Assembly: GCA_907163375.1 (NCBI GenBank)
Contig: CAJQUW010008680.1
Coordinates: 248,001 to 312,000, forward strand
Length of the DNA stretch: 64,000 nt
Source of the DNA: Prostheceraeus crozeri
Taxonomy: Eukaryota; Platyhelminthes; Polycladida; Euryleptidae
Direction of reading: 5' to 3'
Below are positions 5,661-63,739 of the stretch, piece by piece (the stretch's first letter is position 1; each line of letters begins with the position of its first letter). Position numbers and translations under genes: made by a program. Below the pieces are notes generated by a model that saw only the letters and a program-made list of their open reading frames with translations, had not been told where the DNA came from and did not search any database.

Positions 5661-6825
5661 TTGATTGTTTCATAAAAAATGGATCACCCTTAAACATTGC
5701 CTTAACTTCAACTTTGTCTAACTCCGCCAAACTTGAACGAATTTCTCTGAAATTTGGAAGATATGTCAGTTGTGCTTACTAATATCATTGTTGGAAATTT
5801 CAAGATGAATATTGAGTTGTTTTCCTGTTATAGATAAAAAAGTAGTAGATAATTTGATCTTCATTTAGCAATGTTACACAAAATCATACCTCACTCTTAT
5901 AAAATTACATTTGTTTCCTTTGTTATGTTATATGTTGTTCTACAAGCCAAAAGCTATCAAGCAAAACAAAAATAAAGAAAATTGGTCAATCAGAGCCAGT
6001 ATAGCACCATTATTCATCAACAACAATGTAACTGCTACATGTGATTAACTGGACTTCATGTTCCATAGCTTCCTGACTTCGTTGCGGTGGTGTTGGCAGC
6101 ACTCCTGATTGCAAATCTATCTCTTACCGGTTGAAAACAATACAATGCACAAATGAACAATAACGAGATCGCATTCACAAAAGGCAAAGTGTCAGCCTTG
6201 CTAGAACTAGGGTTTTCTTTTCGAGCTACAAGCAGGCGACTAAATGTCCCTTACACAAATGTGCATCGATGGCATAATGATGATTTTCGACTCTGTCGTA
6301 AAGAGGGCTCTGGCCGTCCACGCAAAACATCCAAACGTAGAGACCGCCTAATTTTGAGATTTGTTAAAGTTGATCCAAGTCTCTCGTTAACTGAGATGGC
6401 TGCACTAGTCTCGTCTATTTCTAAGTCCACTATTCGTAGAAGACTTATTGAGTCGAATTTCAAGAGCTGTAAGAGGCCCTCTCAGATCGAATTATACAAA
6501 AAGACATCTCAGATGGGCAATGAGTCATTGTCACTAGCGAAATCAATGGGATCGGGTTGTCTGGTCTGATGAGGCATACGATATGATGATTGATGCGATA
6601 TCATCGAATCAATGCCTAGACGAATTGGTGATGTCATTGACAATAAGGGTAGGGCCACAAAATATTAGCTTCTTAAGAACCGTTACTGTATCATAGCTTA
6701 TCAGATTATATAAGGACATTTAAATATATTAGGGACATGAAATAACATGAAAAATGCTTTCTGTATCATACTTATGTTTTATTTAATCAAATTTTAGGAT
6801 GATCCACTTTTTATGAAACGGACTG
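5661..6825 (+). mobile_element. Internally deleted Tc1-like element (copy A)
   Basis: Same family as the copy at 55793-57448, in the opposite orientation. The right end is the inverse of CAGTCCGTTTCATAAAAAG and is followed by TA. The left end has lost its first bases (TTGATTG instead of CAGATTG) but is preceded by TA. Roughly 490 bp of the catalytic region are missing relative to the other copy: the sequence jumps just after 6570 from the first DDE segment to the 3' end. Confidence 0.88.
6153..6569 (+). pseudogene. Truncated Tc1-like transposase, DNA-binding half
   Basis: Encodes about 138 residues, almost identical to the N-terminus of the copy read leftward from 56945. It has a paired-type helix-turn-helix region with the [12 protein letters not shown] linker, then a second helix-turn-helix ([16 protein letters not shown]). 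The reading frame changes after the KRPSQIEL segment, and the DDE catalytic domain is deleted. It could at most make a DNA-binding fragment. Confidence 0.9.
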
Positions 6826-7347
6826 TACAAGACATGACGATTTCACAATTAGTTGGTTAATAGTGACACAGTGAATTTTACATGTAGTTTCCGTTTTTAA
6901 TAATGTACCGGTGCGTACCGGCATACTCGTACGCACCCAGGTATCACACATAGGTTTCCCTTTTTCGCAATTCCTTGTAGAGAGTGGGTTTCTATGACTT
7001 ACGTATAATACGGACATCAGAAACAGAAATAAAACAGAATACGAACTTTCGTGTTGAATAATGATGTTCCAGCAAGTATTCTGCAAGAATACATAGGCTA
7101 CTTAAGATATCAGGCGTATGTAAGAAAGATGTAAACTGCGGCATACTGTGCCAGTAGTATAGCGAGAACCGTCATATAATAGGCCGGTATTTTTATGTAG
7201 GTTCACCGACTGCTATGGTTGATATCGTGTTTTTACCGATGAATTTTTAGTGTAATCAAATAGAACCCGGGCCTCTAGCAAAACCCGGGTAAGAGCAACA
7301 TGAATTAATAGAACCCCCCCCCGGGTTCTATTAGAAGATACACGGTA

Positions 7348-8078
7348 ATTCAAACCCGACCAGCTTGATTCTTACAAAACATTCATTCTAATATCATTCA
7401 ATATATTATTCGGCAGTGAGTGATTAGTTTCATCAAGTACGTGCATCAGTCACGTAGAGCTGATGAAATCAAATGCATGAAAAGTCAATCCTTGACAGCA
7501 GTAGACGAAAGCAGGATTTAAGCCACTGTTAGATGTGATGTCCCAGTTCGATGATACAGCAATCAGTTAAGAGATACTATTTCCGCATCATGTGAATATC
7601 CATTTGTTTACAATGAAGATTGATGACAAGTTTCCCAGGTACACCAATAATTCCATTATTCCCATTTTCCCGGTTTTTGCCATTTTTATCCGATATTTAC
7701 CCGTTTTCCGACCTGTCCTGGTAAAAACCAGCTTTTTTCATAAATTGCTGATCCTGATTTATAACCCAACTGGTCGTATTTCATGACGCAAATTGTTTCC
7801 TTTTTTGTAATTCTCTTTCGGGATAATCACATAGTGCGACTGTGAGCAATTGCGGATACATAGTGCCTCGTATGAACCATTGTGGACCCGAAATATTCTC
7901 AGTTTCATCAACTATAGGCTTATCATTTCATAGCATGCATGTTGGCAGCGATAGCAACACGGCGACGGGCCGGGATGCCTTGCACAGAGATAGATTATTT
8001 GCGTGCAGGTTAGTCCAGAACGGACAAACTCCTATCCCAGTTATTGCTTGCAATGGTAGCAAGCAGTAGAAATTTTTG
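7348..8078. other. Non-coding stretch, no feature recognised
   Basis: Only short open frames without recognisable domains. I see no clear repeat borders. Confidence 0.5.
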
Positions 8079-8520
8079 GCTGCATTTACACGTGCAACTT
8101 GATTGTTGACACTTTTCGATCCATGATGAGTCAGAAAACAATGGACAAACAATCGAGGTAAAAGGACATCTTCAATAATCGTGCTTCGTGCGTCAACAGA
8201 CAATAGCAGTCAAGCGAATGGTGATAAAGAGAAATGCATTGATTCATCAGCCTATCATCCTCTGAGTGTCAGTAAAAAGTGGCGATAAAGTTGAACAAGG
8301 CGGAACTTCATCTGTCACTTTCTACTGACACTCAGAGGATGATAAGCTGATGAATCAATGCATTTCTCTTTATCAACATTCGCTGGATTCCTATTGTCTG
8401 GTCACGGACGAAACACGATTATTGAAGGCATGCATTTACTTCAATTGTTTGTCCATTCTTTTCTGACTCATCATAGATCGAAAAGTGTCAGCAATCAAGT
8501 TGCACGTGTAAATGCAGCCT
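8079..8520. repeat. Long hairpin: ~203-bp inverted repeat with a 34-bp loop
   Basis: The arm at 8079-8281 (starting GGCTGCATTTACACGTGCAA) is matched in inverse by 8316-8520, with small differences that break both arms' open frames. The fold-back shape and lack of coding suggest a terminal-inverted-repeat or fold-back transposon. I could not establish a target-site duplication. Confidence 0.8.
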
Positions 8521-11500: not shown

Positions 11501-11723
11501 GCCCAAAAGTACTGTTAGAAAGTGAGTTGTTTGTGACTAACAAACGCTAACAACTGTTAGAGATCTGTTAGTCTTTAACCATATGGTGTGCATAAAAAAG
11601 TTATTAGAGCTTTGCTTGAATGCATGCATAACAACTTTGTGTGACAGTTTGTATGGAGAACAATGCCACTTTTAGCATCAGTTGTCATTTGATAAACGGA
11701 AGTGTACAAACGCATCTCGACCA

Positions 11724-12101
11724 CGTGTGTGAAGTTAGCGGGACAAACCAGGGGAACCATTTATTTTTGCAGCGTGATTCTATTTGAAGCAACTTCTACT
11801 TCATCAATTTCAGCCTCCTGATCACGAATCTGGACTGAGATTCCACAAATCACTGTCGTTTTTGAGAAATTCATGTTTAAGGACAAAAGTGGTTCTGCTG
11901 TGAAGTTACTGGAACCATTTTTTTATCTTACGCAAATCTCAAATTCTCAAGATATCGCAAATTTCCGGTTAGAAATAGCATTGTTCTGAAAAAAAGCATG
12001 CATTTGTGGTAGTAGATTGGATCAGGATGTGACAGAATAAAATTGATTTACTGGATGATTAAGAAAATGGTTCCGCTGGGTGTTTCCCTTAACTTCACAC
12101 A
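11724..12101. mobile_element. Short Mutator-like MITE with GTGTGTGAAGTTAGC ends
   Basis: Inverted ends of about 45 bp begin CGTGTGTGAAGTTAGC on the left; the right end carries the inverse form TTAACTTCACACA. Both sides are flanked by the direct repeat CATCTCGACCA (11713-11723 and 12102-12112; one base is shared with the end, so 10-11 bp). Its terminal sequence is the same as that of the fold-back element at 29170-30374. Duplications of 9-11 bp with long inverted ends fit Mutator-like elements. Confidence 0.8.
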
Positions 12102-12276
12102 CATCTCGACCAGAGTCAATGTATGACACCGAGAGTGGCGATTATTCGTTGATTATTTCGTCTGTCTATGTTATAAACCGGTATGTTATTTATTATGAAG
12201 AAGCCTTCCGACACAATTATGTCGAAATTCAACCTATTCTCATGCCTTTCAGTTGTGTCGCGCAACGTGTCATATA

Positions 12277-13000
12277 GTCCGGCAGCCAGAACGAGTTTCT
12301 GTAGGGACCGAGACCGCAAATGAGACTCTCACACATCGATGTCCACCCTTTTTCCTACTACGAATCTACGCGTCTGTTGAGTTCTTGCTAGTTCCTCTTC
12401 TTGTCAAACACAATCAAAGAAAAACACATGTAAATCCAATGGGACGTAGATTTCAGTTTTTGGCAAAAATGATTTTTTATATGTTTTCTCTTATCATCTG
12501 AAAAGTAGTCAGTCAAGGAACACAATTTTGACATGGAATGTCTTTAGGTCATCTCTTATTATGTGTATGTGATAATAGCATGCTTCTGATCGGCGATGTA
12601 TGCGAGAATGTGGTTCAATGTGGATAAAGTTGGCCAACATGTTGGTGTTTGCCGACATTAGGAGGCCTGTAAAATCTGAATGTGTGGAGCTTCATCGATG
12701 AATGCTCATGAGCATGATAGGAAATAGGCTGAAGACATTCCATGTCAAAAATCATAGCTCTAGACTTAGGACTCTTCGCTCAGAAGAGAAAAAAACGTAG
12801 AAAATTTCATTTAAGCAAAATCTTCAATCTGTGTCCCATTGAATTCACATGTGTTTTTCTTTGATTTTGGCTGACAAGAAGAGGAGCTGACTAGAACTCG
12901 GCAGACGCTCAGATTCGCAGTAGGCATGGGGTGCACATCATTGTGTGAAAGTCTCATTTGCGGCCTCTTTCCTTGCTGTAACTCGTTCTGGCTGCCGGAC
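12277..13000. mobile_element. TIR element 'GTCCGGCAGCC', copy A (~220-bp inverted repeats)
   Basis: Starts GTCCGGCAGCCAGAACGAG and ends with the inverse, flanked by TA on each side (12275-12276, 13001-13002). The inverted arms extend about 220 bp (to about 12500, and from about 12810). The interior has no coding capacity. A diverged copy is at about 22191-23043 with the same interior (shared phrases GACATTCCATG and CTCTAGACTTAG). Confidence 0.85.
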
Positions 13001-13243
13001 TAATACATCATTCCAGAGTTTTCATTCTCAGGTTTCAAATAAGCTCTGATGAATAAGTTGGTGTATTTGCTGGACAGTGGTCAAATTATGAAAATCACTC
13101 AGCGCACATTGAGGTATCTTTTGATATATTGGTCATCGAAGTCGGTGGACTAGGTAGGAAATAGGATATCGTTAAGGTATCACAAGATCGTGACTTTCGG
13201 CTTATTCTCAAGGTCAAGTAAACGTCAACGTCAAGTGTATATA

Positions 13244-17815: not shown

Positions 17816-18455
17816 GACGTGACCCTCTCTTTTATTCGTCAATATTATGATCGATATGAAGCTGAAATATGTGCCAAGCTGTTTATCAATATTTCAATAT
17901 AATAATGCTTAATCAATTCCCATATGTCATCAGGTTGTCATTTTGATAGAGCATCTTTCATTGAAATATTGCTTAACAGCTTCAATGACATTGGAGTTTT
18001 ACATGACTGAAAATTAGCTGCGTAGAGTGAATTTTCATATCATCTGACTCTATTTTGCTCTCCTTTCTAAACATCATGTGTCCACAAATCAAAATTTCAC
18101 GGAAACAAAAAAAATAGAGATGAAGAAGATGATTTTAACTTCTGATTTCAATTGTTTTATAGAACATTAACGGAGACAAAGTATTTTTGAAAGTGCAGAC
18201 ACAAACGTCAATCATTGATTATGAGAATATTACTTCCCGTTGAATGTCTTACAAACAATGTGTTCTTAGAACAGAATTCTGTCATGACAATTCCCGAAAT
18301 ATCCATGCATCATCTGCGAGACAAATTACAGCACATTTTTTCATATTTCTAGTCGTTAAATTTTGTTTCATTGATACATAGACAATAATTGATGAAGTAG
18401 TAATAAAGTATGAAAATCTATCCTTCTATTTCATAAGAAAGAACAATTGCTTTAA

Positions 18456-18493
18456 CCGGACATGTTTCAATCATATAATGACCATCATCAGCG
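18456..18493 (-). ncRNA. Hammerhead ribozyme motif (left arm)
   Basis: Read on the - strand: CCG, CTGATGA, a stem-loop GGTCAT/ATGATT (two G-U pairs), GAAA, a minimal stem III (AC-AT-GT), GTC and CGG. The outer parts are identical to the motif after the Penelope remnant at 3475-3514; only stem II differs, and its pairing is preserved. Confidence 0.7.
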
Positions 18494-18544
18494 GAAAGTA
18501 ACATTAAAGAGACATAAAGGAGACTGTCTCTTTTACGTTAATTT

Positions 18545-18583
18545 CCGCTGATGATGGTTATTATGTGATTGAAACATGTCCGG
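18545..18583 (+). ncRNA. Hammerhead ribozyme motif (right arm)
   Basis: Same core as its partner on the other arm: CCG, CTGATGA, stem II GGTTAT/GTGATT, GAAACATGTC, CGG. Compared with the left arm, stem II has changed but still pairs through G-U wobbles. Confidence 0.7.
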
Positions 18584-19559
18584 TTAAAGCAATTGCTCTT
18601 TCTAATGAAATAAGAAGCTCCTCGGCACACTTTGCGTGAATATATCTTCTTGTAACGAATTGAATCGCATCCATTCAAACATGTGGCAGTTATAAGTTGC
18701 TCATTTTTCAAGAATGTCATCGTCAGTTGTCAAGCATCTGCGATTCAGCTCGTCAAAGAATTTTCGTGAGGTCAAACTTGACAAGAACAATGATATCTGT
18801 ATCCGAATCTATGCTTTATGCAAACAGAGCAAATGTTTTGACAATCTAAAATTCATAGAGAGCACAATGGAGAGACAAATTAATTCCGTATGAAGTGAAT
18901 AAATTCAAAAGCTTTTATGAATGATATAAAGAACGGCACATTAACAAATGCGAATATCCGCGAAAAAGAAGAATACAAATTTTAAGTCATAATGATCTAA
19001 TATATCTTACTTTTTTAGAAAACCTGGCTTTAAATAGATATTTCAAAAATGCCATTAAATTCTTCAGATACAAAACATGAAAATTCTGAATGCAATATTC
19101 AGCTACCCTATCTTTGTAAAGGATGAGTTTTGCAGGTGGACGAGTTTTTTATACCCAATCCGAAGATATCCCAACGTATTTTTACATTATCGAGCCATGG
19201 GAATCCTACGGGTCCAAGGACTGTAATTGAGCATCTCCAACAGCCTAGTATTTCAGTCTGCTTTCTATGAATAAGTCCTCTCCTATATCTATGCACAACT
19301 TTAAATCCAACATACGCGTATGTCACAGATTTCAAATTTTAAGTGTTTACGAAATTACCTCTTCTCTATCCCTGAAGCGACCTAGATAGTCGAAAATTTG
19401 GCAATACCCGCCATCAGAAAAACAGCAAGGCTTTTAAATTATCATACAACAAACAACATGCTGTTCAAGCGGAACTGCAAAATTTTATGCAATATTTTAA
19501 GACTAGTTGAGATTTGTTTTTTTGGAGTACTCTACTCAGTAATGTGATCAGATTATTGT

Positions 19560-22190: not shown

Positions 22191-23043
22191 TTGGCACCCA
22201 GAACAAGTTTCTTCAGGAAACGAGGTCGAAAGTGAGACTGCTGTCACAGAGTGTGCACTATGTGTACGTCTGTCGAGTTTTTCCTGGCTCCTCTTCTTGT
22301 CGGAGGGGATCAAACAAAAGTACATCTTATTCAATGGGAAACTGTTTGAAGTATTTTGTTAAACTGAAATTTTCTATGTTATTCCTTATTAAGTGAAAAG
22401 TACTTAGTTTGCACAAGCCTAAAAGCAATTATACTTAAATGTGTATATTGATTTTCGATTAGTGTGCTAATTTGATTAAACTAATTCAATGATCGCTACT
22501 TGTTAAAACACATTTTCTAAGATAACGACGAGATTTTTGTACAATCTGCATTCAAGTCACAAATTTTTAAATGGTATGTCAGCTAGTCATTTCAAAACGT
22601 GTGTACATATATGTGTTATTTTCATGCTTCTAGTCGAAGATGTATGCAAGAATGTGGTCAGATGGGGACAAAGTAGGCCAAAAATGTTGGTGTTTGTGTT
22701 GTTTGCCGTCACTATAGGCTTGCCAAATCTGACTGTGTTTGTTGTTTAGCTTCATAGTCAGGACTGCATTGATTATATAAGTCCAAGATATGAAGACATT
22801 CCATGCCAAAAACTATGGCTCTAGACTTAGTACTGTTCACTTAGTAAGAGAAAATTTCATCTTAGCCAAAAAATTCAATCTGCGACCCATTGGATTGACA
22901 TGTGATTTTCTTTGATTCTGTCTGACAAGAGGAGGAACCAGGTAGGACTGGGCCGACGCGCAGATTCGTAGGCATATAGTATGTTCTGCGAAAAACTCAT
23001 TTTCGGCCTCGTTCCCCGCAGAAATTCGCTCTGACCGCCGGGC
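22191..23043. mobile_element. TIR element 'GTCCGGCAGCC', copy B (diverged)
   Basis: Same structure as 12277-13000. The inverted arms are about 22191-22390 and 22850-23043, the right end abuts TA (23044-23045), and the interior sequence is homologous. The left end has drifted (TTGGCACCCAGAACAAG). No coding capacity. Confidence 0.75.
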
Positions 23044-23666
23044 TAATATGAAACATAACAATGGACAAAGAAAAATCTGTGGATTGTAAATCAATGCCGA
23101 TCTAATGCATTGCATTGTATTTGTAAGCTATTTGTCAATTATGTTGTGGAAGTTTCTGATAGCAAATTGTGGGATGTTCTAGGTCAGGATTTTAGGTGAG
23201 TTGATAGTTAATTTTTAAATACAAGGGTTCCATGAATTGATATTGTGCGAGTCTACGTGCAGTAGTCATCGACAATTATCACCAAATTTTTCACTGTTAG
23301 AATACGGATGAAAAATGAGTTCTCAGAGCCAAAAATTGTATAGCGCTTAGTGTACTGATTGTGAGAAAAAATCAAGAATTCCCTGATACAATTTCTCATT
23401 CAAACGACAGAGAAAGTGAATGATTTTCTGGACTAATGTGATTGAAAGCTTTTCATCCACTATCATCACTCAGATAAATAATGGGAACTTTTCGATTGAT
23501 CAATGGATGACACATGTGGTATAGTGTAATGACATTATGGATGCCGATATTCGAAAATATTCAAATTTTTTGAAAACTGCCCAAATTGAACACAGATTCA
23601 TTTTAAAACATTGTATAATCGAAAATTAAGCTATGTAAATTCATTTTTGTGCATGAGTCTTTTGTG

Positions 23667-27800: not shown

Positions 27801-27910
27801 AAAACGATTTTTTGTGATTGTAAATATCCGACTGTACTGTTTTATCTCCAATGTTTGTTAGACGGAAGATTTTCGTCCAACTTTGAACAGAGCATACAAA
27901 ACTTGTTATT

Positions 27911-28048
27911 ATCGAAATAATTAGTTAAAAAGCCAGAAGCTTTTTAATATCTAATAAAAAAATATATTATAATAAAAATATCTCTTATCATTATGGAAAT
28001 TAAATAGCAAAAATTGCAGCTTCTGGCTATTTAATTAACTATTTCGAT
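27911..28048. repeat. 138-bp AT-rich hairpin (MITE-like)
   Basis: Arms beginning ATCGAAATAATTAGTTAA (27911) and ending with the inverse ATTTCGAT (28048), containing the inverse pair GCCAGAAGCT/AGCTTCTGGC. The interior is almost pure A/T. It ends 132 bp before the next LOXL exon. Confidence 0.7.
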
Positions 28049-28180
28049 ACTCTTATTGGTAATAATGATGCTACAAAATAAGATTGATATTTCACAAAAC
28101 TTGTTGTGTATAGTAGGCGATACTGATGTGTCAAAATGATGTATGCTTTCGAGGTCAATAATGAAGTATCATATTTGCAG

Positions 28181-28275: not shown

Positions 28276-29169
28276 GTGAGAATCTCCAACAACTACAAAT
28301 TGTTGCAAAATATATATTCATTGAATGTTACATGCACAATGTGAATGTACGGGAACATCAGTTTGATATGTGAATATGTGATTCCTTTGACTTCACTTCG
28401 ACATCATGGAAAGATCGCACGAGGTGATTGGAAGCACTAAGTCCGAGAGTGCTTGATGGACCAGCGATAATCTGGTCTGATTGCTTGGTGTCATCACTGG
28501 CACCTGATTGGTCCCCGACAAGTTTGTGCTTATGACTTGGGGCACCCCTGTAACTAACCGCGAGTTGCCAATCGTGCCTTTTCCTTCTTTTTTAGTAAAA
28601 TCCTTTTATTTAAGAAGGAAGCTTTAAATTCCTGCCGAATGCAGTTTTCGATTAATGCAATCATCATCCTTTATGTGTGAATTTTTTATGATAGTCGACA
28701 CTTATTATTAAGCTATTATTGTATCTAAATCTGATTTAAAGCAACTAATCATTCTCGTTTTAGATCGAACTTGATGTCAAAGTCAATTGATCATGCATTT
28801 TAATATCTGTCGCAAGTATCGTCTCGTGGAATATTTAACTTGATTAAAATTGCTTAAATAATGTATCTCGGAGATGGAGGCAGCATTTTCATGCGTTGAC
28901 ATTCACCAATAATATTTATCGAACCCTCTCAAGATAGGGTTGGATTCTGATATCGTTCTGATACTCTTCTGGTGGTGCGTTCACCTCTCGTTGACCATTA
29001 TTACTTTTGTTTATTTGAAAATGCGATCCACAACTGAAGTCAATAATTGTGACGAACTGTACAAATCTTCCGATTTACACGAAAGCCATGTTTCAGCAAT
29101 GCCATTCAGTTGCTGAAAACTATTTCACATGCATTGGATTTCTTTTGCTGAGATTGGCTCATTGAATGA

Positions 29170-30374
29170 CGTGTGTGAAGTTAGCACCGCCACTCAGCAC
29201 CGCCATCTTGAAAATGGAATGTGCCACTCAAATAAACCTAACAGATCCATGCATTTGGTGTGTGCCAGCATGTGCCACCCATTATTTTTAAAGAATTCCT
29301 CCTAGTTTAGGAGAAATCGCTGGTTGAAAGTTAGACATGGCGGTGATGTGAAGTTAGCACCGCCACAAAATTTTTTTTTCCAAAATACACAATCAAAACA
29401 TACGAAACACGCACAACAGATAGAAGACCATCAAAGACATTGTGCCAGCAAGTTTCAGCACCTAACTCCACGTACTTCCGGAGAAATCAGTCCCCGAAAC
29501 CACAAAATGGCGGTGATGTGAAGTTAGCACCGCCATAAAATTTTTTTTCCAAAATACACAATCAAAACATACGAAACACACACAACAGATAGAAAACTAT
29601 CAAAAACATTGTGCCAGCAAGTTTCTTCTCCTAAGACGCCGTACTTCCGGAGAAATTAGCCCCCGAAAGCTCAATACGTCTGGCGGTGATGTGAAGTTGG
29701 CAGAACCATCTTGAAAAATGCATGTGCCAGTCAAACCAACGATCAGAATCGATCTAGATGGAGTGTGCCAGCATGTGCCACTTATTTCTTTCACGAAAAT
29801 ACCACCAGATCCGGTGGAATACCAACCCGAAAGCTCAATGGCGGTGATGTGAAGTTGGCACCGCCATTTTGTGGTTTCGGGGACTGATTTCTCCGGAAGT
29901 ACGTGGAGTTAGGTGCTGAAACTTGCTGGCACAATGTCTTTGATGGTCTTCTATCTGTTGTGTGTGTTTCGTATGTTTTGATTGTGTATTTTGGGAAAAA
30001 AATTTTAGTGGCGGTGCTAACTTCACATCACCGCCATTTTGTGGTTTCGGGGACTGATTTCTCCGGAAGTACGGGGAGTTAGGTGCTGAAACTTGCTGGC
30101 ACAATGTCTTTGATGGTCTTCTATCTGTTGTGCGTGTTTCGTATGTTTTGATTGTGTATTTTGGAAAAAAAAAATTTGTGGCGGTGCTAACTTCACATCA
30201 CCGCCATGTCTAACTTTCAACCAGCGATTTCTCCTAAACTAGGAGGAATTCTTTAAAAATAATGGGTGGCACATGCTGGCACACACCAAATGCATGGATC
30301 TGTTAGGTTTATTTGAGTGGCACATTCCATTTTCAAGATGGCGGTGCTGAGTGGCGGTGCTAACTTCACACACG
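29170..30374. mobile_element. Modular fold-back element, Mutator-like, 1205 bp
   Basis: Starts CGTGTGTGAAGTTAGC and ends with the inverse, flanked by identical 11-bp direct repeats TCATTGAATGA (29159-29169, 30375-30385). Inside, a box with GGCGGTG at one end and CACCGCC at the other (26 bp where intact) recurs about every 170 bp: 29339, 29509, 29682, 29840, 30010, 30180, with half boxes at both ends. The boxes delimit seven related modules of roughly 150-175 bp. The first four read forward (outer type, A, B, C) and the last three in inverse (A, A, outer type), so the whole folds back near 29770. No coding. It sits in the last visible intron of LOXL gene 1. Confidence 0.92.
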
Positions 30375-30482
30375 TCATTGAATGAGGGTGCACGCTGTGC
30401 TAAATTGGCTCCCTGATTTTAATTCAATTTATTGCGTGCTTCCATACCCTCTAGTTCCAACGTCCCTGGTTCAAATTCTTCC

Positions 30483-32600: not shown

Positions 32601-32996
32601 ACGAATGATACTAATTTTTATAGTTTCAGAGGCTATAAAAGTGTCTATTCAAAGGGCCCATTACGCAAGATTTAATGAAAATTTGGAAAACTGTATAGAA
32701 ATGTAACAATAACGTGATACACAAACATATGAGGCACACATCAATCAATGAGAAAAATTGATGATTGTATTAGGCACTGTATGTAGACATTATGTGAAAC
32801 TATAAGATGGAACAACCGGTACAATTATGTAGAATTAATTCAGATGTAGACCAGTTACAGAATGTACATGCATGTTTATTCGATAGTGTTTTTAGCATAC
32901 ATGTCAACTTTCTCCGGGAAGATATGAATCATGAATCAAAAATGTTCATGTTTGGTGTCTTCAGAATCCTTGCGTTGTAAGGAATTCGAATATATA

Positions 32997-33247
32997 AGTT
33001 GTATTCACATCAGCTCAATAGTTGTTTTTCAAACTTCTTCAATATTTTTTCGCATTTCCACTAAAGTACACAAACACCATGTCAGGTGAACGAAGGTTAA
33101 AAACAAGACAATTGGTGCAGGCATGTCTTTGTTCTCTCATAAGCTGCCAATTGTTTACCTTCATTGTTTAGTATGTACTTTTGGGGAAATGAGAAAAAAT
33201 GTTGAAGAAGCTTGAAAAACAACTATTGAACTTATGTCAATATAACT
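32997..33247. mobile_element. 251-bp hairpin MITE (TA flanks)
   Basis: Inverted arms of about 65 bp: the left begins AGTTGTATTCACATCAG and includes CAATAGTTGTTTTTCAA; the right is its inverse (TTGAAAAACAACTATTG). TA lies on both sides. Non-coding. Confidence 0.75.
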
Positions 33248-34059
33248 TACATTTTCGAATTTTTGAACATTTTTGATTTCAGCCAAAAGAGTAGTGATTC
33301 TGTGCTAACTTCACGATATCACTAATTTTTTATTAGCTCACCGATTTTGATGACCAGTATGTCGAAAGAGAGCTCAGAAAATACTCGTTCTCACCGTGCC
33401 TGATTCATTATGATACTCACATGTTTTCTTTTTGAACAATTTCGATTTGAAAATTGAGTGATTTTCATATTTTGAGCACTGGTCAGCAAATACAATGACA
33501 GATGCCATAGCTCATTTTAAAGCTGAGAATGCAAGCTCTCGAATGATGTATGGCACGTTGTTGTGCGACACGATTGTGGAAGGCATGAGAATTGATTGAA
33601 TCTCAGTGACAATAAGGTGGTCCGTTTTTTGTGATCAGCTCTGTAGTATATGACAGTATAGTAGACAGTCTTCGCAATCAATGAATCACGGCGTTTCTCC
33701 TAGCAAGTAAAACTACCAAAGAAAGAAATAATTCTTCTAGAAGGCACTTTTTAAAACAATACTAAGTTCCAGCAGACCGAAAGCAAACACTCACCGCATT
33801 GTTGGTTTGTAGAATTTGGTGCTATCTTTACGAAAAGTTGCTGGTCGATTTACAATCTAATTATGCAATGCAGCTGAAATGAAACTGAACATCATCGCTT
33901 TTATATTAAGCAACGAGATAGACCTGCATATTTTAGCTGAATTGCCAGATAATACTTATCTGCAAGAACAAGTGTCTAATTGTTAAAAATGAATAAATAC
34001 AATTTTCCTTATTCATGATTGCGAAGGCCTCAGGAGTAAAAGAAAAATTAACTACCATA

Positions 34060-34889
34060 GAGCAAGTATATTAGGTAGAGTGGTAACTCCGCATTTATTA
34101 AATCCCAAATGCGCATACACTGTCGATTTTATTAAATGAACTCAAGGGGGATACAGTCGGAATTGTTTCCAAATGTGAGACATATGCACATTTATGCAGT
34201 TTTTAAGAATTTACAACGGAATTGACTGATCATAATAGCATAAAGCAGAAGGAAATGATATTATTTTACAGATTCTCAGTGTCCTGACAGCCTTGGAGAG
34301 GTAATGTTTGTTAAATTGGCAACTCGATGACCTGCTATTGCTTTCATGCTCAACCTCATGAGTATTTTCTTAAGCGTGATCATATCACAGGCAACCTGCC
34401 ACTGGCAGAGCAAAATCACATAATCAAAGACAATGATTTCAATTAACTTTGAAAGATGTAAATGGGTCCACATCACTACTCAGATTCAAGAAATTAAGCA
34501 TGAATTAGTGAATCATAAAATCATGCCGTTGAAAATTGAATCATAAACTTCAAATTTCAGCCAAGAAAGCACTAGGAATGCGACTTTTTCATGAAGACTT
34601 CGGATCATTAGGATTCGAATCATGAAATTCCTTTGATATTCAGCTTCATTTCCGCTTAGTTAGGATACTTATTAGCAAAAATGCATTCCTTTTGATATCC
34701 AACTTGTTTCATACTACTTATGTAGGTGCGTCACCTCGGTAACATTTAAATTTGCGAAATTTTGACTTTTTTAAAACTGCTCAAATAATTTTTTGGACCA
34801 CGGGAACGTAATCTCCGCAAAAAACTGAATCTTTTCATATAAAAAATTTCACTGTGTACAGATACTACCTATATACCTATATAATACTC
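34060..34889 (-). mobile_element. TA-flanked repeat family 'GAG(T/C)AAGTA', copy 1
   Basis: Terminal sequence GAGCAAGTATATTAGGTAG at the left and a degenerate inverse at the right (ACTC before TA). TA at 34058-34059 and 34890-34891. The interior is homologous, in inverse orientation, to 41133-41974 and to the outer parts of 46115-48920. The shared subterminal sequence includes GGTAGAGTGGTAACTC. Non-coding, about 830 bp. Confidence 0.82.
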
Positions 34890-41132: not shown

Positions 41133-41974
41133 GAGTAAGTATATAGTAGGTAGAGTGTCGACTCAAAAAGTATCTGTATACAGTGAAATTTTTTGTATGA
41201 AAAGATTCAGTTTTTTGCGGGGATTACGTTCCTGGGGTCAAAAAAATTATTTGAGCAGTTTTCAAAATGCTAAATTTTGGTAAATTTACAAACTACCGAG
41301 ATGAAGTCCCTTTATAAGTAGCATGAAACAAGTTGGTTATCAAAATGAATGAATATTTGCTAATAAGCATCTTAATTAAGCGGAAATTAAGCTCATGATC
41401 AATAAAATTTTATAAAACCATTAGTCATAGTCCCTTCAAGTCTTTGAGGAGACGTTGAGATCTTATTGAGAGCTTCTTGGCTAATATGTCAAGCTTTTAA
41501 TTCAATTTTCATCGGCGTGATTGAATGACTCACAAGGCGTCATTTCTTGAATCTGAATAATTAATATGGATCCATTTGCATCTTTTGAAGTTCATCGTGA
41601 ACAGTTTCTTTGATTGCGATGTCTTGCTCTTTCAGTGGCAGTTTGTGATATGATCACGCTTAAGAAAATTATCTTGTTACGATAAGCGGAGCTTTTAGTA
41701 ATGGTAACCCCTCGAATTGCTAATTTTACAAACTATATTACTTCTCTCTCCAAGTTGTCATGACATGGAGGATTTGTGGAATACTATTCCTTATTCTGTA
41801 TTACTATAATTATCGTTCAAATTCGTTTACATTTCTCCAAACGTGTATAAACTGCATATCTCACAGGTGGTACTGGGTCTCGACCTGGTCTCGACTCATG
41901 TTCATTTAATGAAATCGAAACTGTACACATTGGGGATTTAATAAATGCTGAGTTACCACTCTACCTACTTTCTC
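41133..41974 (+). mobile_element. TA-flanked repeat family 'GAG(T/C)AAGTA', copy 2
   Basis: Left end GAGTAAGTATATAGTAGG and right end, inverse, GAGAAAGTAGGTAGAGTGG; TA at 41131-41132 and 41975-41976. 842 bp and non-coding, the best-preserved copy. It ends about 370 bp before the ATG of LOXL gene 2, so it could lie in that gene's 5' region or first intron. Confidence 0.88.
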
Positions 41975-42347
41975 TATGAGTTGCTGCTTGTGACGTACTA
42001 TATTGATTCACAAACAGCATTATACAATCGATTTTTCAAAACTCAGTAGGCAGAAGTCGAATTACTGCATCAGCTAAATGTGAGAATCGGCCGATGTGTC
42101 TATTTAAAGATGAAACAGTTCTGAATTCTGGACAGTGCGCTGCAACTCGTAAAATGCTTTTACATAAGTAACTGTTTGTTTGGGTTAATTGAAGGTATCT
42201 TTCGTAACTGTGCACATTGGCAGATCCGGGTGAATGTTAAGGGAAGATACCGGTACGCCTACATCATTGACCGAGTATTCTGATAAACAGATACACTAAT
42301 TTCCCTTTGGCAGTTGCTTCACTTCTTAATATTCTCCTACGTCTTAT

Positions 42348-42651
42348 ATGGCTTCTCTGCTGAAATTGATCGTCGTCTTATTTCTCATCAATTATCTGTG
42401 CCCTTCTTCCAGCGGCTGGGTGCGACGTCAGAGGTTGAAGAAACGAAGAGAGTTGAAAGATGGAGACGTCAAACTCATCGACGGAAACAACCCGAACGAG
42501 GGAACCGTGCTCATCTTCAAAGGTTACGATTGGGGTTCTATTTGTGACGATGGGTGGGATATGAACGAAGCGAAGATTGTCTGCATGCAGCTTGGATTCG
42601 GAGAACCACGCGACGTTCTCACTGGCAATCATTTTCACACTCGGGGCTTTA
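42348..42651 (+). CDS. LOXL gene 2 exon 1: signal peptide and first half of SRCR 1
   Basis: The ATG at 42348 opens [19 protein letters not shown], a clear signal peptide, then basic residues (RRQRLKKRR). SRCR start: [18 protein letters not shown] ... GSICDDGWD ... [13 protein letters not shown]. Donor TTTA/GTGAGT after 42651, phase 1. A strong acceptor (CCCTTTGGCAG, ending 42313) precedes the ATG, so a non-coding first exon probably lies upstream. Confidence 0.92.
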
Positions 42652-45600
42652 GTGAGTATCATTATCAAATAGCAATTTCTAGCAATATTGACACCATCCA
42701 TGTAATTGTTTAGAAACTAACGTTCAAAAAGTCAAACAGGCAGCACAGCAGAGAGCATGATCGAGTGAGTGTGTGAGTGAGAGAAAAAAGGAAGAGAGGG
42801 ACAGAGAGAGGGAGAGAGAGTGTGTGTGCATGAGAGAGAGAGAGAGAGAGAGAGAGAGGAGGGAGGGAAGGACCATCACTAGGTGACCTGCCTCGCGCTA
42901 CAGGGTCTATTTTGCCGTCATTACTTGGGTTGTGAGCCCGAGATTGAACTCAGGCTTCTGAAAAAAGAGACTGAGCCCATGCCCGGGACTAGTGCGATGT
43001 GCCTTGTCATTGTCAATTCCGGGCTTGAGTCTCCAAGCCCGGGATCCCGATTTTATGGACGTAATTAGATTTGTTATTTTTGTAAATGTTTTGAGCTTCT
43101 ATAAAAAGATAAATAGATCATATAACTAAATGCAGTTATATATTGATATCTTATTAGATTTTGCTTTCATTGGACTCGAATAAAAGCCTGCTTTCTATCC
43201 TTTGTGAGCCATGGGCATACATTTTCATTCACGATTTGCATTGATTAGTTGATCGCTAGTGTCTATGTCATTCTTAGACTGCAAAGTTAAACGGAGATGA
43301 CATATTTTGATGAGAATGAAGGAATTGGTTATATCCAGAGACAGGCACAGTTTATAGATCCCTCTCGATTGTGCGACGGAATCAATCGCGCGATTGGGGA
43401 ATGACCAAATCGCACGGCGATCTTTCAAAGTCATTTTCCCATAAAATTTGCTTGATAAGGAAATGTGTAGGCCATTTTCTAACTTTACTACTGAGTATCA
43501 CATTTTCAGCGTATGAGAAAATCGTACTGATAATTGATGTTGCTTTAGCAGTTCAGCCATCCACTGCGCTGAAACTAGATTGGAATATACTGTACGACGA
43601 AGAACGGAAGATCTATCAATTTTCTATGGTTTCCACCAATTTCTTTGGTTCTACTACCGATCAATCCATTTAAATCAAATAGACAATAGAATAAGACAGT
43701 CTAATATCCGAACAATAACTTTTCAGAATAACTTTGTGTCATGCTAGGCCCTACTGCACCCAAACATGAATATATTCAGTCAAAATTGCACCCAAACGGT
43801 TTGGGCCAAACAAATATATGAAAACATAAGATACATGAGATGTACAAAATACATATAATTTTTGGTGTTAATTTCTTCAAATTACTGTGTACTTCAAATT
43901 ACTTTTGTAGCATACTTTTTACAGCAATTGCCTTGTATAAAAAGATAATAATTGAACTTGACTTTCCATAATAATTGTCATTGTTATGTATGCACGCACA
44001 TTAGATTTGTAGGGTTAGTCAAAATCAAAAGTCAATAGTAAGACGACCAATTTAAATTGAAAACTCTATATCTATGATAGTCAGAATAACCGAACAAATA
44101 ACGTGAAGATAGGACACATGATTGGATTTGTATCAGCAGTTTTATCAGTATCCAACGGCCATTTTTTTCTTTTTGAATAGAAATAATGAATAATTCCAAA
44201 TTCTTCTGTCATTGCAGATCTGTCATCACAAATAAGAACATCAATTTAGGCCCAATTCTAACTTCCGATGGTAAAGCTATAGAAACAGTTGAACGGCTTG
44301 CCCTTCTTGGCCTGACATTTTCCAATACCTTGACTTGGAATCATCATGTGTACAACATAGTGAAAGCTGCTTCTCGGAGAGTTTATATCATTATAAATCT
44401 GAAACGTTCCGGTTGTCCGACGTATATAATTCAAAAAGTGTATGTTTCGTGTATACAAAGTTTACTGTCATATGCATATCCCAGCTTTTGCAATTTAACT
44501 AAATATCTTTTTCGAGAGTTGATGTCTGTTGAACGCCGTGTGTACAGAATAGTTGGCTTACCGCATGACTCCTCGAATTCTCCGTTGTTGAATGCCACAA
44601 CTAAATTATGTACAAATCTATTTCATAACATTTGCATGTCTCAGGATCATTCTCTCAGACGTATGTTTGAGGAACGTCCAATTCGTTCTAGACTCAAGAT
44701 ACCTTTAAGGAAACCTTTTACTCGCACTAGGCGTCTCCGAGATTCATTTGTAAAGTTTTGTCCTTAACACTGCTTTCATATACACGTACGTATTACTATT
44801 CCTCCTATCATTTCTCATTTGTCATGTACTTCCTTTCTATGTAATGTGCTCATTGATTTATTGAGACAATAAAGATTTATCTATTCTATTCTATTCTATT
44901 CATGTAGACCTACCCAGATATCGCCTCTATTTCCAACCTGTAACAGAGCCCATTTTACGACACATGCCATTTCCTTATGCTGGGTACGGCATGATTTTGA
45001 CATATACAGTATGTTGAAAACGGTGGATTCCCTAAACTTCACGCTTCATAGTTAATGAATAACGCTTGTCTTTGCATTCTGCAACCTTAAGTGCGCAGAG
45101 CACATGTAGTACTCATTACATTGCATATTGAATCTCGGTGAATCCAACCTGCTTTTTCAGTATAGCTTCCTTTCGTACAGACTATACATGTATATGATGA
45201 GAATGACACTGTTTCGAAGAAGGCACTTGAGCGTTCCTATGCGTTCCTCACCAAGGAGGACAGTAATGAACTCTGTTCCCAAGCTCCCCCCCCCCCCCGA
45301 CGACAACCCCCTGATTTGATGCATACATTAATGAGTATACAGTTTACCTATTGTGACCTAAACTGATCCAATCTTCATTCTGCACGACAATTTCAGGGAG
45401 GCTAGGCGGCTCACAACGATCAATGTCAGTAACATTGCCTAAATTTCATAATGCATGTTATTATGTACATGATGCTGCATCATGCATTGATCCAAATAGA
45501 TCTTTAAATTGATTGATTATAATTTATGACAATATTTCGTGCTCAAAAAATTATTGTCATGGATTTACTTTCATGCATACATCACGGAAATCAAGGGCTA

Positions 45601-48600
45601 GCGGTTCGGTACATTGAAAAATTTGTGTGATTCATTTACACGCTTAAACTGCACTTTTATTTCATTCATGCTAAGAAGCTCTCATACATCCAACAATTAC
45701 TATTTCAGAGCCGCGAATACACAACTGCGAAACATAGTCGCAATAAAAACAATGCAGAATCATAAGCAACAGCAAGCATCATTAAGAGAGCTATTATGAC
45801 CTGAAGAAAGCATGATTTCAGAAGGATGATGGAAAAATTTCATTTCGAGAACCCAGACTCCGTGTTACTCCGGGAATACAACCCTATGATCCATTACAAG
45901 ATGCCGAAATGGAAATTAGAATGCAATCGTTTAAAATGCAATTTTTCATTTAGGATTTCTGAGCGCAGATATTTTCGTATCTACAACTCCTCTTAATAAG
46001 GAGACATCGTTTTTCGTCTTCTTGAAAATCATGGATCTATTTCAAGCAGCCAATCGTATACTAGCAGTGCGAGTAGCACTTTCGAAGAATGTTTATGCGA
46101 AGCTTTGCGTCATAGAGTAGGTAGGACAGTGGTGGGCAACGCGTGGCTCGCGGGCCACTTGGTGGCCCCCCGGGACATATTGGGTGGCCCGCCACCGCTT
46201 CTCATATCTAAAGTGGCCCGCGGACATTATTTGGATCGATGATGTGAAAATGACTAACTCTGACTACGACCTTTTGGGAGGTGCATATGAGGATGAGGTA
46301 TCCTCTTTAGAATTTGCAAAACCATTAATCAACAACTAAATGAGCAATATGATGCCCCAAAAACAAAAATTCACATTCGAATCATCCAATAATGCTCCAT
46401 TCGTGATGAATGTCTTCTCGTATAGGCGCAAAATGGTCATCACCTGCGCGAGTTTATGCTAAGTTGCATGGTATTCGATGCCTTGTTCAGCATGCTTGAC
46501 TGTGTAATAAACCACACTTCAATGAACGTAGAAAGAGGCTATATCAGTTAGACCTTGACTATTCAAATGTAGGAATCCAACACACAGCCGCACTTGTTTG
46601 GTTGACATATGTTGACGTATTTATATGTAGCACGATCAACAATTGTAGCAAAATCTTGTACGGCTTTCAGGCGGATAGTTGCACTGCACTTACAGACCGT
46701 TATTTTTCGATAAAATAAGATACTGTCGGTGAATCACCAAAAAAGTCAAATTACCGTTTATTTACACAAAAGAAAAGCTTCGATGATTTGTTATAGGCCT
46801 TGAATATCTCACATGAGTTTCAGAAAGTAAATTAACCCCTTCTTTACCATGACGCATAAAAAAGTGCTTATAGAGGGCCATGACGCCCCAGGGGCGTCAT
46901 AGCTCATATTGTCGTCTACACTCATTTGTTCTTTACGGATCGCTGTCTGCTACTCGGATAAACTATTAGGCGCTCTTCAGAATGATTTCCTTCATTTAAT
47001 ACGATACGCGCGCAGTTAAACAAACACACAAACACACACTAGTGAACACAAGATGTTGTAGATAGGAAGTTAGGTAGTTAGGAATTGCTTGACGTCTTCC
47101 CTTCATCTCATGAGCTGGATGCTGATTGGTTCACAAGATAAGCTAATGATGGATGGACAGTAACATAGAGAATAAGTTGCATTCTGAACTCACATGTTTA
47201 GTGAAGCAATAATGGCTAGTTCTGAAAGACCACGTCGGCAAATACAAGTAGTACGAAGGCATGGATTCTCAAAAAGTGATGATGAGACTGATAACAGTGA
47301 GGCTGAGTTCGATGAAAGCGAAGAATCCTCGAATGATTCAAGCAGCGATGAATGCATACATCCGTTACAAGAATGAAAAGAACAGAAGTGCAGAATTCAA
47401 AGAGTTTACCCGATCATGTATCTTACGACTCATTGGAATACAATCAACAATTAGAAAAAGGCCTGGATCGGTAGGAAGACGAGTATCAGCAGACGGTGAT
47501 GCCTTTAGTTCACATGAGCCGAGTTATCCAGAAGATTCCTGCGACCGAAAAGAAGTAGAATCCGAAGAAAAGATGCAGAATTTGTTATCAAGACGGAGTG
47601 CGAAAGGATTCACGATTCCAATGTGTGCAGTGTCCAGACAAACCCGGATTGTGTGTTGATTGCTTTGGTAACTATCACCAGTAAACATGTTTTGATTATT
47701 GTTATATACATGAGCATGTACATGAAATAAACTTGATTTTTTTAACTTGAGGTAATTTTGAATTATTGTACATAAATGTAAGTATAAATAAACATTAAAC
47801 AACTAAAAGAAAGCATAATCTTGATAGAAAACAAGAGATATAAATATGATGAAAATCTTCAAATTCTTTGGTACGGGGTGGAAATTTTGAAAATTTTGAT
47901 CGGTAAAGAAGGGGTTAAGATTCCTTAATATTAAATAAATTAGCTGCGCACAATACTGCTGTATTCATTTGCATGTAAAACTTTGCTACATAATACGACC
48001 ACTTTATATGCACGCACGGTACGTACATCAGCCCATATGTGCGCTTAAAAGTACGGAACAAATGAATATTAAGCCTATGCTACTGCCTTTTATAATTGGT
48101 GGCCCGCTATCCAATTATAACTTGGTTGCCCACCACTGAGGTAGAGTGTCAACTCAAGAAATGTTAGCATACAGTGAAAAGTTTTGTATCAGAGGATTCA
48201 GTACTTTGCGGAGATTACGCTCCTGCGGTCTAAAAAATATATAATCACTTTTTTAAGGAGTTAAATTTTTAAAATTATTCCTGTGTTTATATCGACGTGG
48301 ACCCACTATACAAGTAGTATGAAACTCATTAGATGCTAACAAGTACCTCAATCAAGCGGAATTTAAGATGATTCAAGGAAATTTCTTGAACCCAATTTTA
48401 TTGCAGGTCTCATTGAGATTCTTGACTGAAATTTCAAGTTTTCAATTCAATTTTCATCGGCATGATTTCATGATTCACTAATTTTATGTTTCATTTCTTG
48501 GATCTGAATAGTAATGTGAACCGATTTATAAGTACATCTTTTAAAGTTAATTATGATATTGTCTTCGATAATGACTCTTTGCACTTTCAGTGGCAGCTAG

Positions 48601-51600
48601 CTTTTATATATGATCACGCTTAATAAAATGCTCTTATTAAAAAAGATGGAGCATTTAACCCATCAAATTGCTAATTTAACAAACTATATTACCTCTCCAA
48701 GGTTGACCTGACACGAAGGATTTGTAAAATACTATTATTCTTTCTGTATTGCTATCATGATCAGTCAAATCCGTGGTTATCTCTTCAAAAACTGAGAAAA
48801 TTCTAGCACTATGTCACATTTGGTAGTCTCAACTCGAGCTCATTCGATAAAATCGAAATTTTTATGCACATTGGGTCTTTAATTTATGCTTAGTTCCTAC
48901 TATACCCAGCATACTTACTCCACACTTTGCGTCTTTCTACTTCAAGTGATGTGAGAATCATAAAATTAAGACTAATTTCCGATGTATGTGCAAAATGCAA
49001 GTATGTGGCTTTTTCCCTTCACTAGTCAATTTACGAGTTTTTATCTCATGCATTAGACCGTCATTGTAGAAACATGCAGGCCTTGCCTTTATACTTGTAA
49101 CAAGTGAAGGAAAGAGAATGGTTTTTAAAGCGCTTCTTTGTTATTGGTCTAACATTTTCATTCACTTCCTCAAGGACATTCCGTTGTAATTTCTGGTTGC
49201 ACCATTTTACGATGTAAGCTACTTGCTTTCTGAAACAGTAGCATCATAAATAATGCATTTCTGTGACAGAAAAATAACTGTGTGGATCATTTTTGGAATC
49301 GTAGAAAAAAAGAAAAGTAACATGAATTATTTTACATGTAAGCATGTTTTCTTACTTCCGGTGCATCTCTACATATATGGCAGCAAATGCATGAACACAT
49401 GTTCGTGAGAGGCAAACTGAGTTCACCTTAGGCAGCACAGTTCGAAAGAACGCAGTCGTAGACAACATAGCTACGATTTCCTTGATAGCAGCTTTGTCAA
49501 TAACATAAAGATCATAGCATGAAAGCTTGCTAAAATACTGGAATTCTGTGCAATAAATCGTTGCTATTGGCATTTTAGACTTAAAGTATTTTTTCAGACA
49601 ATTATCCCTTCATGTTGTTTTATTCTTCAAACCTGCAATAATTTCTTGTGGAATTCTATAATCTACAGTCGTTTCTTGTTATCTATTAAATTTAATGAAC
49701 AATTACAAAGTTGACAGCAATTAGGCAAAAAGATCTCAATTTTGATTCTTCTGAAAATTTTGTCCTGCAGGTCACATGCTACTTGATGATCTTGAATGTC
49801 TTGGGAATGAGACACACTTAGGCGAATGTCCTCATTATTTCCCGTGGGGAGAACACGACTGTCATCCATACGACGAAATTGCTGGAGTCAGATGTTTCAC
49901 GAAGCCCAAGGTGGTGGATCAATATCCAAAATGGAACCCTCTCGGTGTGGAACATCCTTCTAAGAGTGAAATCATTAGAATGCAAAGGGTAATTGACTTT
50001 CTTCGTCTTCATTAGCAGCTACGGTACTTTTGAGCACGTATTGCTTGGAATTGGATGACAATTAATTCTTTGTCAATTAATTCTGAAAAGTTCACAGTTG
50101 AATATTGCCTCATGGTGCGTCATAGAGGACAGTTTCATTGAAACGGTCACCTACAGTTTAGACATCAGAGATTTCGACTACTTCTTTTAAATATTTTCCA
50201 ATTGTCAGCTAAGAAGAAAAATTGTTGCGTTTTCAGAGCCGAAGTTTTCCACCCAAAGGTGAAGCCACAGAATTAAATATTTTGTTTACCTGCTTCGGTT
50301 TGCTAGAAGTGTGATTAATACGAAATTGACGGCACATCGAGGAACCTATTAGGTGGGCAAAAAGGAATTCCTTATACCTTACAGAGATAGGAAAAAAGTC
50401 GTGCGTCGGTTGCGGATTAAAGTGAATTCCAGCAAAGAGCTTCTATTGCCAAAATTCCTTCAGATTCGAAGAATTCAGATCATTGCGCACATGTTTTCTC
50501 CATAATGTTGGCCCTTCCGATCATTATTAAAGAAAGTAGCAGGCGTACGAAAATTAGTTCACTTGATGTTTTCACATCCTCTCCTCGGCATTTCCCACTG
50601 CATAGTGCATACGCTGAATCGAATGTTACCGGACGATGTGTGTTTTGGTGTGTGCGAAGTGATATCACAGCACGCACGCATCTCTCACTAGCTCTGGTGT
50701 CCTTTGCTGACAGCTTATTGTTTGTTATTTCCAACATCAAGCGATGCACGAATTATCCATTCGAGAAGGAGCAAGTTGTCTAATTCCGTGATGTGCCATT
50801 TCGATATTAAGGTTGCATAAAATTTTTCCTTTCTAGGAAACCGAAGCGCGCGCAGATGAATCTAATTCTGTGGGTGAAGCCTACAAAACCGGATGTTGGC
50901 TAACCATTCATACAAAGCATCCAAAACTATATACCAGCAAGCTTAATCAACATAAACAAGTTCGAGCTATTCTTCGAAAGATTCATTTTCTACTTGAAAT
51001 GAATGATTGTGGAGATCACAGTTTCCGGGATTATCAAACATTAATTGCAATTTAATGGCGCTTTTCAATAAATTAATTGAAATTGGTATTCGTGAGCAAT
51101 CAATTAGTTGTAATTGATAATTCAGAGCCATCAAGTAATTGAAATTAAAAATAATATTTGCTCAAGGTGGACATTCTATATCTTTATTCTCAATTTCGGA
51201 CAGCACCACCTAAAAAAGTTTTGAGAGATGAATTATTGCGAGCCACCTTTCGTCTGATCATCATATTGCATCCTGATTACGCCTGATGATGTCTGAATGA
51301 TCAGACGAAAAGTGCCTCGCAATAATTCTGCTTTCGAAACCTTTTTAGGTGGCACTGTCCGAAATTGAGAATAAAGGTGTTAAAAGCAATGTCAATGCCG
51401 GCTTGACTAAATGGTCGTTCTATGGATGCTCAGGACTCGAGTACAGAAAACAGTCCTGTAAAACTGCTGTACAATAAATACATTTTGAAATACAGTTCTA
51501 TCACGTCTGCAACCTCGTGTTCATTGTTAAGGAAACGGCGCATCTATACTTCCCGTCAAAAGTCGTTGCACCCCTCAGAAAAATAGCGTTTTCAATGTTT

Positions 51601-63636: not shown

Positions 63637-63739
63637 GTAAGTATTCATTTTCGAAGTTTTGTTGCAATGACACTCACAAAGACATTACAAATGTCAGTTA
63701 CAGCGAGCATTTAGCCTACTATTTCTCACCGTTAGGGTA

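Follow-up and report, generated by a model that had tools for sequence, protein, structure and literature searches.

Anatomy of the fold-back element

The window, a stretch of 64,000 nucleotides of the Prostheceraeus crozeri genome, contains a fold-back element of 1,205 bp at positions 29170-30374, here named E1, which consists of seven modules of 158-173 bp in the order A+ B1+ B2+ C+ | B3- B4- A-. A perfect 11-bp target-site duplication, TCATTGAATGA, directly abuts the element on the left (29159-29169) and, in identical form, on the right (30375-30385). The duplicated target is itself an odd palindrome (TCATT-G-AATGA), and for this reason the arms returned by an inverted-repeat search (29158-29554 and 29990-30386) run 12 bp beyond the element. 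The arms of the element proper (29170-29688 and 30374-29859) are 95.6% identical over 520 columns. The limits of E1, the 11-bp duplication and the forward-then-inverse order of the modules had been proposed in an earlier, sequence-only reading, and all held when the sequence was re-examined. The same was true of the starts of the internal boxes, at 29339, 29509, 29682, 29840, 30010 and 30180 (spacings of 170, 173, 158, 170 and 170 bp), and of the match between the outermost modules.

Module A+ (29170-29337, plus strand) carries an outer end of the form CGTGTGTGAAGTTA-N19-CCAT, in which the outer-end pattern defined below is exact at 29171-29206; A- (30207-30374, minus strand) carries the same outer end on its own strand, and the two modules differ in 0 of 168 columns. 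B1+ (29338-29507, plus strand) starts with an internal box (29338-29365) that matches the box pattern exactly. It differs in 2 of 170 columns from B4- (30037-30206, minus strand; box at 30179-30206) and in 4 of 170 from B3- (29867-30036, minus strand; box at 30009-30036), and 6 of 170 columns differ between B3- and B4-. The central module C+ (29681-29838, plus strand) is A-like and starts with a hybrid box (29681-29708), an exact match to the pattern with unpaired arms. Another exact box (29839-29866, plus strand), with a DNA hairpin z of -4.36, marks the point at which the modules turn from forward to inverse.

The seven modules had been described as related, but they are not close repeats of one another. 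Global identities are 100% for A+/A-, 98% for B1/B4, 97% for B1/B3 and 96% for B3/B4, and 87% between B2 and the other B modules, so that B modules span 87-98%; they fall to 64-65% for A/C (64% for C+), 59-61% for B/C and 53-54% for A/B. Even so, the scores for A/C (z 11.4), B1/C (z 8.1) and A/B1 (z 6.2) each exceeded all 300 shuffles, and A, B and C therefore most likely descend from a single ancestral unit. Their sequences indicate that the three types diverged long before the present arms became alike. In their outer regions, A together with B1/B4, the arms differ at 2 of 338 columns, which suggests that they either arose recently or still exchange sequence with each other. B2+ (29508-29680, plus strand; box at 29508-29535 at its start) is a mosaic: its first half is as in the other B modules and its second half is diverged (over positions 1-85 it departs from B1 at 3 sites, and over the remainder at 19), and it has the same tail as C, CCCGAAAGCTCAA. 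A structure of this kind is consistent with template switching from one module to another, or with recombination between them.

Near-identical outer arms, with no difference between the A modules and two between B1 and B4, might also be produced by a fold-back artefact of assembly or sequencing. However, the long arms extend only to 29158 and 30386, where the 11-bp direct duplication ends, and the symmetry is broken at the centre of E1: there is no inverse counterpart of C, and 21 of 174 columns are different between B2 and B3. We regard it as highly improbable that the palindrome is anything other than a real element.

A second element and two kinds of site

A second element, E2 (11724-12102, plus strand; 378-379 bp), has the same terminus as E1, two inverted halves and a single internal box. 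Its target duplication, ATCTCGACCA, is 10 bp long (11714-11723 and 12103-12112). When the A at 12103 is read instead as a changed last base, paired with the C on the left, the length becomes 9 bp (TCTCGACCA). The 15-bp terminus is exact at 11725, at the left end of E2, and an inverted copy with two mismatches ends at 12102. The internal box, TGG-TTCTGC-TGTGAAGTTA-CTGGAA-CCA (11890-11917, plus strand), matches the box pattern exactly and has three further paired bases. Beyond the ends the two halves, E2L and E2R, resemble each other weakly (59% inverted identity, z 7.2), and they are 51-56% identical to the E1 modules. Three pairs were tested against 300 shuffles each: A+/E2L (z 4.6) and B1+/E2L (z 3.3) exceeded all of them, A+/E2L narrowly, and the similarity of C+ to E2L was indistinct from shuffles (z 1.2). 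E2 is a single, diverged further copy, with two halves and one box as against the seven modules of E1. The earlier reading had named one fixed structure in all copies as the observation that would speak against it; the one other copy examined, E2, differs in structure from E1.

Despite their divergence, E1 and E2 have the same spacings, N19 at the outer ends and N6 at the internal boxes. The outer-end pattern GTGTGTGAAGTTA-N19-CCAT was exact at all four ends of the two elements and at no other site in the window; with up to three mismatches it gave 5 matches, against a shuffle mean of 0.26. The internal-box pattern TGG-N6-TGTGAAGTTR-N6-CCA was exact at 7/7 internal boxes (six in E1 and one in E2), again with no other exact site in the window. 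When up to three mismatches were allowed, it gave 11 matches (shuffle mean 1.00), the non-exact ones being three outer ends and one site elsewhere, at 34536. Both patterns were derived from these same sites, and the scans of the window measure specificity and not prediction. With the same tolerance TGAAGTTAGCACCGCCA had 7 matches in the window, a number reached by none of 100 shuffles (mean 0.10). The bases that precede TGTGAAG also differ: they are CGTG at three of the four outer ends (the right end of E2 reads TGTG), and GTGA and CTGC at the same position in the internal boxes of E1 and E2, respectively. From the differing spacings and leading bases, then, we take outer ends and internal boxes to be two kinds of site. 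The proposal that the box resembles the terminus was right in that TGTGAAGTTAGCACCGCC is common to both, but the internal boxes lack the first four bases of the terminus, CGTG. The spacing rule rests on two elements; these are diverged, and they nevertheless keep one rule that separates outer ends from internal boxes.

The boxes had been described as inverted repeats of the form GGCGGTG...CACCGCC. This was borne out for five of the six boxes of E1, which, folded as single-stranded DNA, gave z values of -4.15 to -5.26, with 0 or 1 of 200 shuffles as good, and in which five further bases pair past TGG/CCA. It was not for the box at 29682, a hybrid with the left arm GGCGGTG and the right arm GAACCAT: no further bases pair, and it folds no better than shuffles (z -0.42; 66/200 as good). 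The E2 box, with its three pairs, folds modestly (z -2.33; 9/200 as good). The arm bases differ between the two elements, yet they pair, as CGG/CCG in E1 and as TTC/GAA in E2. As a chance background we used the matches of the box pattern in viral contigs (31 matches in 30 contigs, not all independent); at least three further arm bases were paired in 2 of the 31, which are one sequence in two contigs. This suggests that the arms of the boxes may be kept complementary, although two elements are too few to show this. More simply, each module may close with an inverted copy of the sequence that opens it.

We did not accept covariation of the arms as proof of a hairpin function. It rests on two elements only, the folding of the E2 box is modest, and E1 inserted in one piece with the arms at 29682 unpaired, barring a later change in them. 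A more elaborate reading, which we consider doubtful, is that the boxes are a structural signal in which the fixed core TGTGAAGTTR is looped between complementary arms of free sequence at the N6 positions, and that an extruded hairpin, or a symmetric dimer of transposase, would be recognised. Outer ends (N19) would then be cut and boxes (N6) would serve in assembly, as two separately conserved kinds of site, with the period of about 170 bp setting the geometry of a paired-end complex (perhaps one nucleosome, which is a guess).

Elsewhere in the window, at 33292-33324 on the minus strand, an exact GTGAAGTTAGCAC lies between the arms TAGTGAT and ATCACTA (site 33306), next to a 279-bp palindrome at 32983-33261. 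It may be what is left of a third box, with a different arm sequence. Arms of at least 7, as found here, occurred at 1.0% of 62,499 background positions. The site has no TGG/CCA frame, and no terminus with up to three mismatches was found between 30374 and 41718; we have left it unproven as a third box.

Insertion as a unit and the proposed role of the internal boxes

The matching flanks measure 11 bp around the whole of E1 and 10 bp around the whole of E2. In contrast, the flanks of the seven E1 modules, with limits set in two ways, and those of the two E2 halves match over 2-4 bp each. Among random 170-bp stretches, 1 in 5,000 had a flank match of at least 10 bp. The view that E1 inserted as one unit is thus upheld by an 11-bp duplication around the whole and 2-4 bp around its single modules.

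The suggestion that any of the modules might serve as a mobile end was weakened by the same comparison. If the boxes were full ends, the array could have arisen from repeated adjacent insertion of units of about 170 bp, and most modules do open with CACCGCCA after the core and close with the complement, TGGCGGTG, so that each resembles a tiny inverted-repeat element. However, in E1 and E2 alike the outer CGTG is missing from the boxes and CCA(T) follows after N6, not N19, the flank match of single modules is no higher than that of random stretches, and none of the seven internal boxes bounds a module with its own duplication. Since they have neither target duplications of their own nor the outer CGTG, single modules are unlikely to be mobile ends, and we rate growth of the array by successive insertions as quite unlikely. 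The better reading is that the internal boxes are likely to be accessory sites, predicted to bind transposase.

Taken together, we think it probable that E1 is a fold-back DNA transposon of the non-autonomous type, which most likely belongs to the Mutator (MULE) superfamily. Its insertion as a single unit would depend on a transposase acting in trans, which would recognise and cleave the outer CGTGTGTGAAGTTA ends. The internal boxes would offer extra copies of the recognition core every 170 bp or so, raising binding or helping the ends to pair, and would be bound and left uncleaved. The array of modules would grow by tandem duplication, through slippage, unequal exchange or gap repair, and exchange between the inverted arms would keep the two alike. 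E1 and E2 provide a compact substrate for testing binding and cutting at each kind of site, and the importance of arm pairing.

Relation to known elements and other features of the window

Repeats within the termini of fold-back transposons are thought to serve as extra sites for transposase and to seed satellite DNA. E1 had been described as a mix of satellite and fold-back transposon; the description fits, but the combination is already known from Tetris and Rehavkus-1_TC.

Tetris, of Drosophila virilis, is like E1 an apparently non-autonomous fold-back element, and part of the sequence of the tandem repeats in its terminal inverted repeats (TIRs), of about 220 bp, is also found in the outer terminal domain; the number of repeats varies, and target duplications are 8-10 bp long (PMC4079207). 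Growth of the array is documented by a pair of alleles, one with three repeats and the other with four (PMC4079207). Unlike E1, Tetris has TIRs of up to 1,735 bp, and its 220-bp unit shares 37 bp at about 80% (PMC4079207), whereas the 158-173-bp module of E1 itself carries the terminal core at a fixed spacing; the part of the Tetris account available does not mention an inverted-repeat box at module junctions (PMC4079207). In Tribolium, the DNA transposon Rehavkus-1_TC, with the satellite TCsat23, has like E1 tandem units (164 bp) in its inverted termini, where mostly five and eight follow one another, but is an element of 9.5 kb (PMC10218199), a distinction drawn from its description and not from its sequence. 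Rehavkus elements make 9-bp duplications and are listed as an outgroup to MULEs (PMC6446971), as against 11 bp for E1 and 9 or 10 bp for E2, so that the Rehavkus length is not that of E1. A further mark of Rehavkus is a PHD finger in its transposase.

The tandem-TIR MULEs of tomato and Arabidopsis resemble E1 in that whole TIRs are tandemly duplicated at both ends and in that the target duplication lies outside only, with none at internal TIRs (PMC3310237). They differ in being plant elements whose external and internal TIRs are alike over at least 100 bp (PMC3310237), whereas E1 has two B modules per arm together with diverged A and C modules. In tomato, MULEs in which both ends carry tandem TIRs have amplified to a greater extent than those that have a single extra TIR, and better recognition of the former by the transposase was proposed (PMC3310237). 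Tm1 of Meloidogyne (PMC3169594) and Muta1 of Aedes (PMC5225508) are, like E1, animal Mutator/Foldback elements with composite TIRs. Both have variable repeat numbers and many non-autonomous copies, but their repeat units are about 12-15 bp long as compared with about 170 bp in E1 (PMC3169594; PMC5225508). Muta1, an active element, has a terminal motif that is an imperfect palindrome (PMC5225508); the terminal motifs of Tm1, CGGTTAA and CCTACCC, differ from CGTGTGTGAAG (PMC3169594). From these comparisons, E1 is a further case of a kind already defined by Tetris, Rehavkus-1_TC, Tm1, Muta1 and the plant tandem-TIR MULEs. Its particular features are the compact, near-symmetric plan of seven modules, the recurrence of the terminal core wherever two modules meet, and the pair of spacings that it has in common with E2.

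Assignment to the Mutator superfamily is probable, judging from duplication length and TIRs. The duplications of E1 (11 bp, perfect) and E2 (9-10 bp) fall within the 8-11 bp of MULEs (PMC6446971), and the arms of E1, at 516-519 bp, are long TIRs by MULE standards (typically above 100 bp) and contain internal tandem repeats, as in Foldback elements. Taken alone, E2 does not have such long TIRs: its conserved ends are short, and the weak inverted similarity beyond them is unlike that of long-TIR MULEs. The unequal duplication lengths of the two elements also count against this assignment. The earlier description of E1 as Mutator-like thus agrees with the duplications, but the 17 ORFs listed at 120 aa or longer, all of them complete within the window and all searched against Pfam (E-value limit 0.001), yielded no MULE transposase. 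The 120-aa ORF listed for E1 (29835-30197) had no Pfam match, and because E1 contains no long ORF with a transposase domain, it would have to be moved in trans if it is mobile.

A fold-back element of another superfamily with the same architecture, P/Galileo-like or unnamed, would also agree with the absence of a transposase among these ORFs. Architecture alone is not decisive, as Galileo, with its fold-back-like TIRs, belongs to the P-element superfamily (PMC3688188). Membership of another superfamily seems to us rather unlikely, as the duplications of both elements fit the MULE range. Galileo also has sites for the THAP domain of its transposase in the tandem repeats of its TIRs, which favours the accessory binding role predicted here for the internal boxes. 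A 2013 account called the function of such repeats untested in Foldback and Phantom elements (PMC3688188).

The exact core TGTGAAGTTAGCACCGCC had two matches in a collection of genome contigs, one in a Poribacteria MAG contig and one in a Clostridia contig. One spans 23 bp (22 identical) and the other ends with the 18 bp of the core itself, and we rejected them as being at about the level of chance that we estimate for 18 bases. The exact core had no match in viral contigs, E1 had none in a plasmid collection searched in distant mode, and the window had none in Rfam at the gathering threshold. Six other inverted repeats in the window (8078-8519, 12275-13002, 18423-18617, 27910-28049, 32983-33261 and 51182-51376) do not have the termini of E1 and E2 at their ends. 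The first is a 442-bp palindrome (88%) with no apparent duplication in the adjoining flanks. The second, a 71% self-inverted repeat, represents another palindromic family and matches parts of 22267-23054 at 70-76%; directly beside it, the stretch 13003-13101 matches 33455-33551 at 81%.

Pfam detected Tc1/mariner-type transposases among the ORFs of the window, which, with the SRCR and lysyl oxidase domains given below, suggest animal DNA. Two inverted Tc1-like copies, at 5663-6828 and 55790-57446, have pieces that are 96-97% identical; both contain an HTH_Tnp_Tc3_2 domain, and the second also a DDE_3 domain. A repeat of about 800 bp is present in three copies that are 66-73% alike (34056-34866, 41148-41978 and 48139-48920). 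Lastly, Pfam placed an SRCR domain (42330-42710) and a lysyl oxidase domain (63316-63711) about 20 kb apart on the plus strand; from the domain make-up of lysyl oxidase-like proteins, these are perhaps exons of one lysyl oxidase-like gene.
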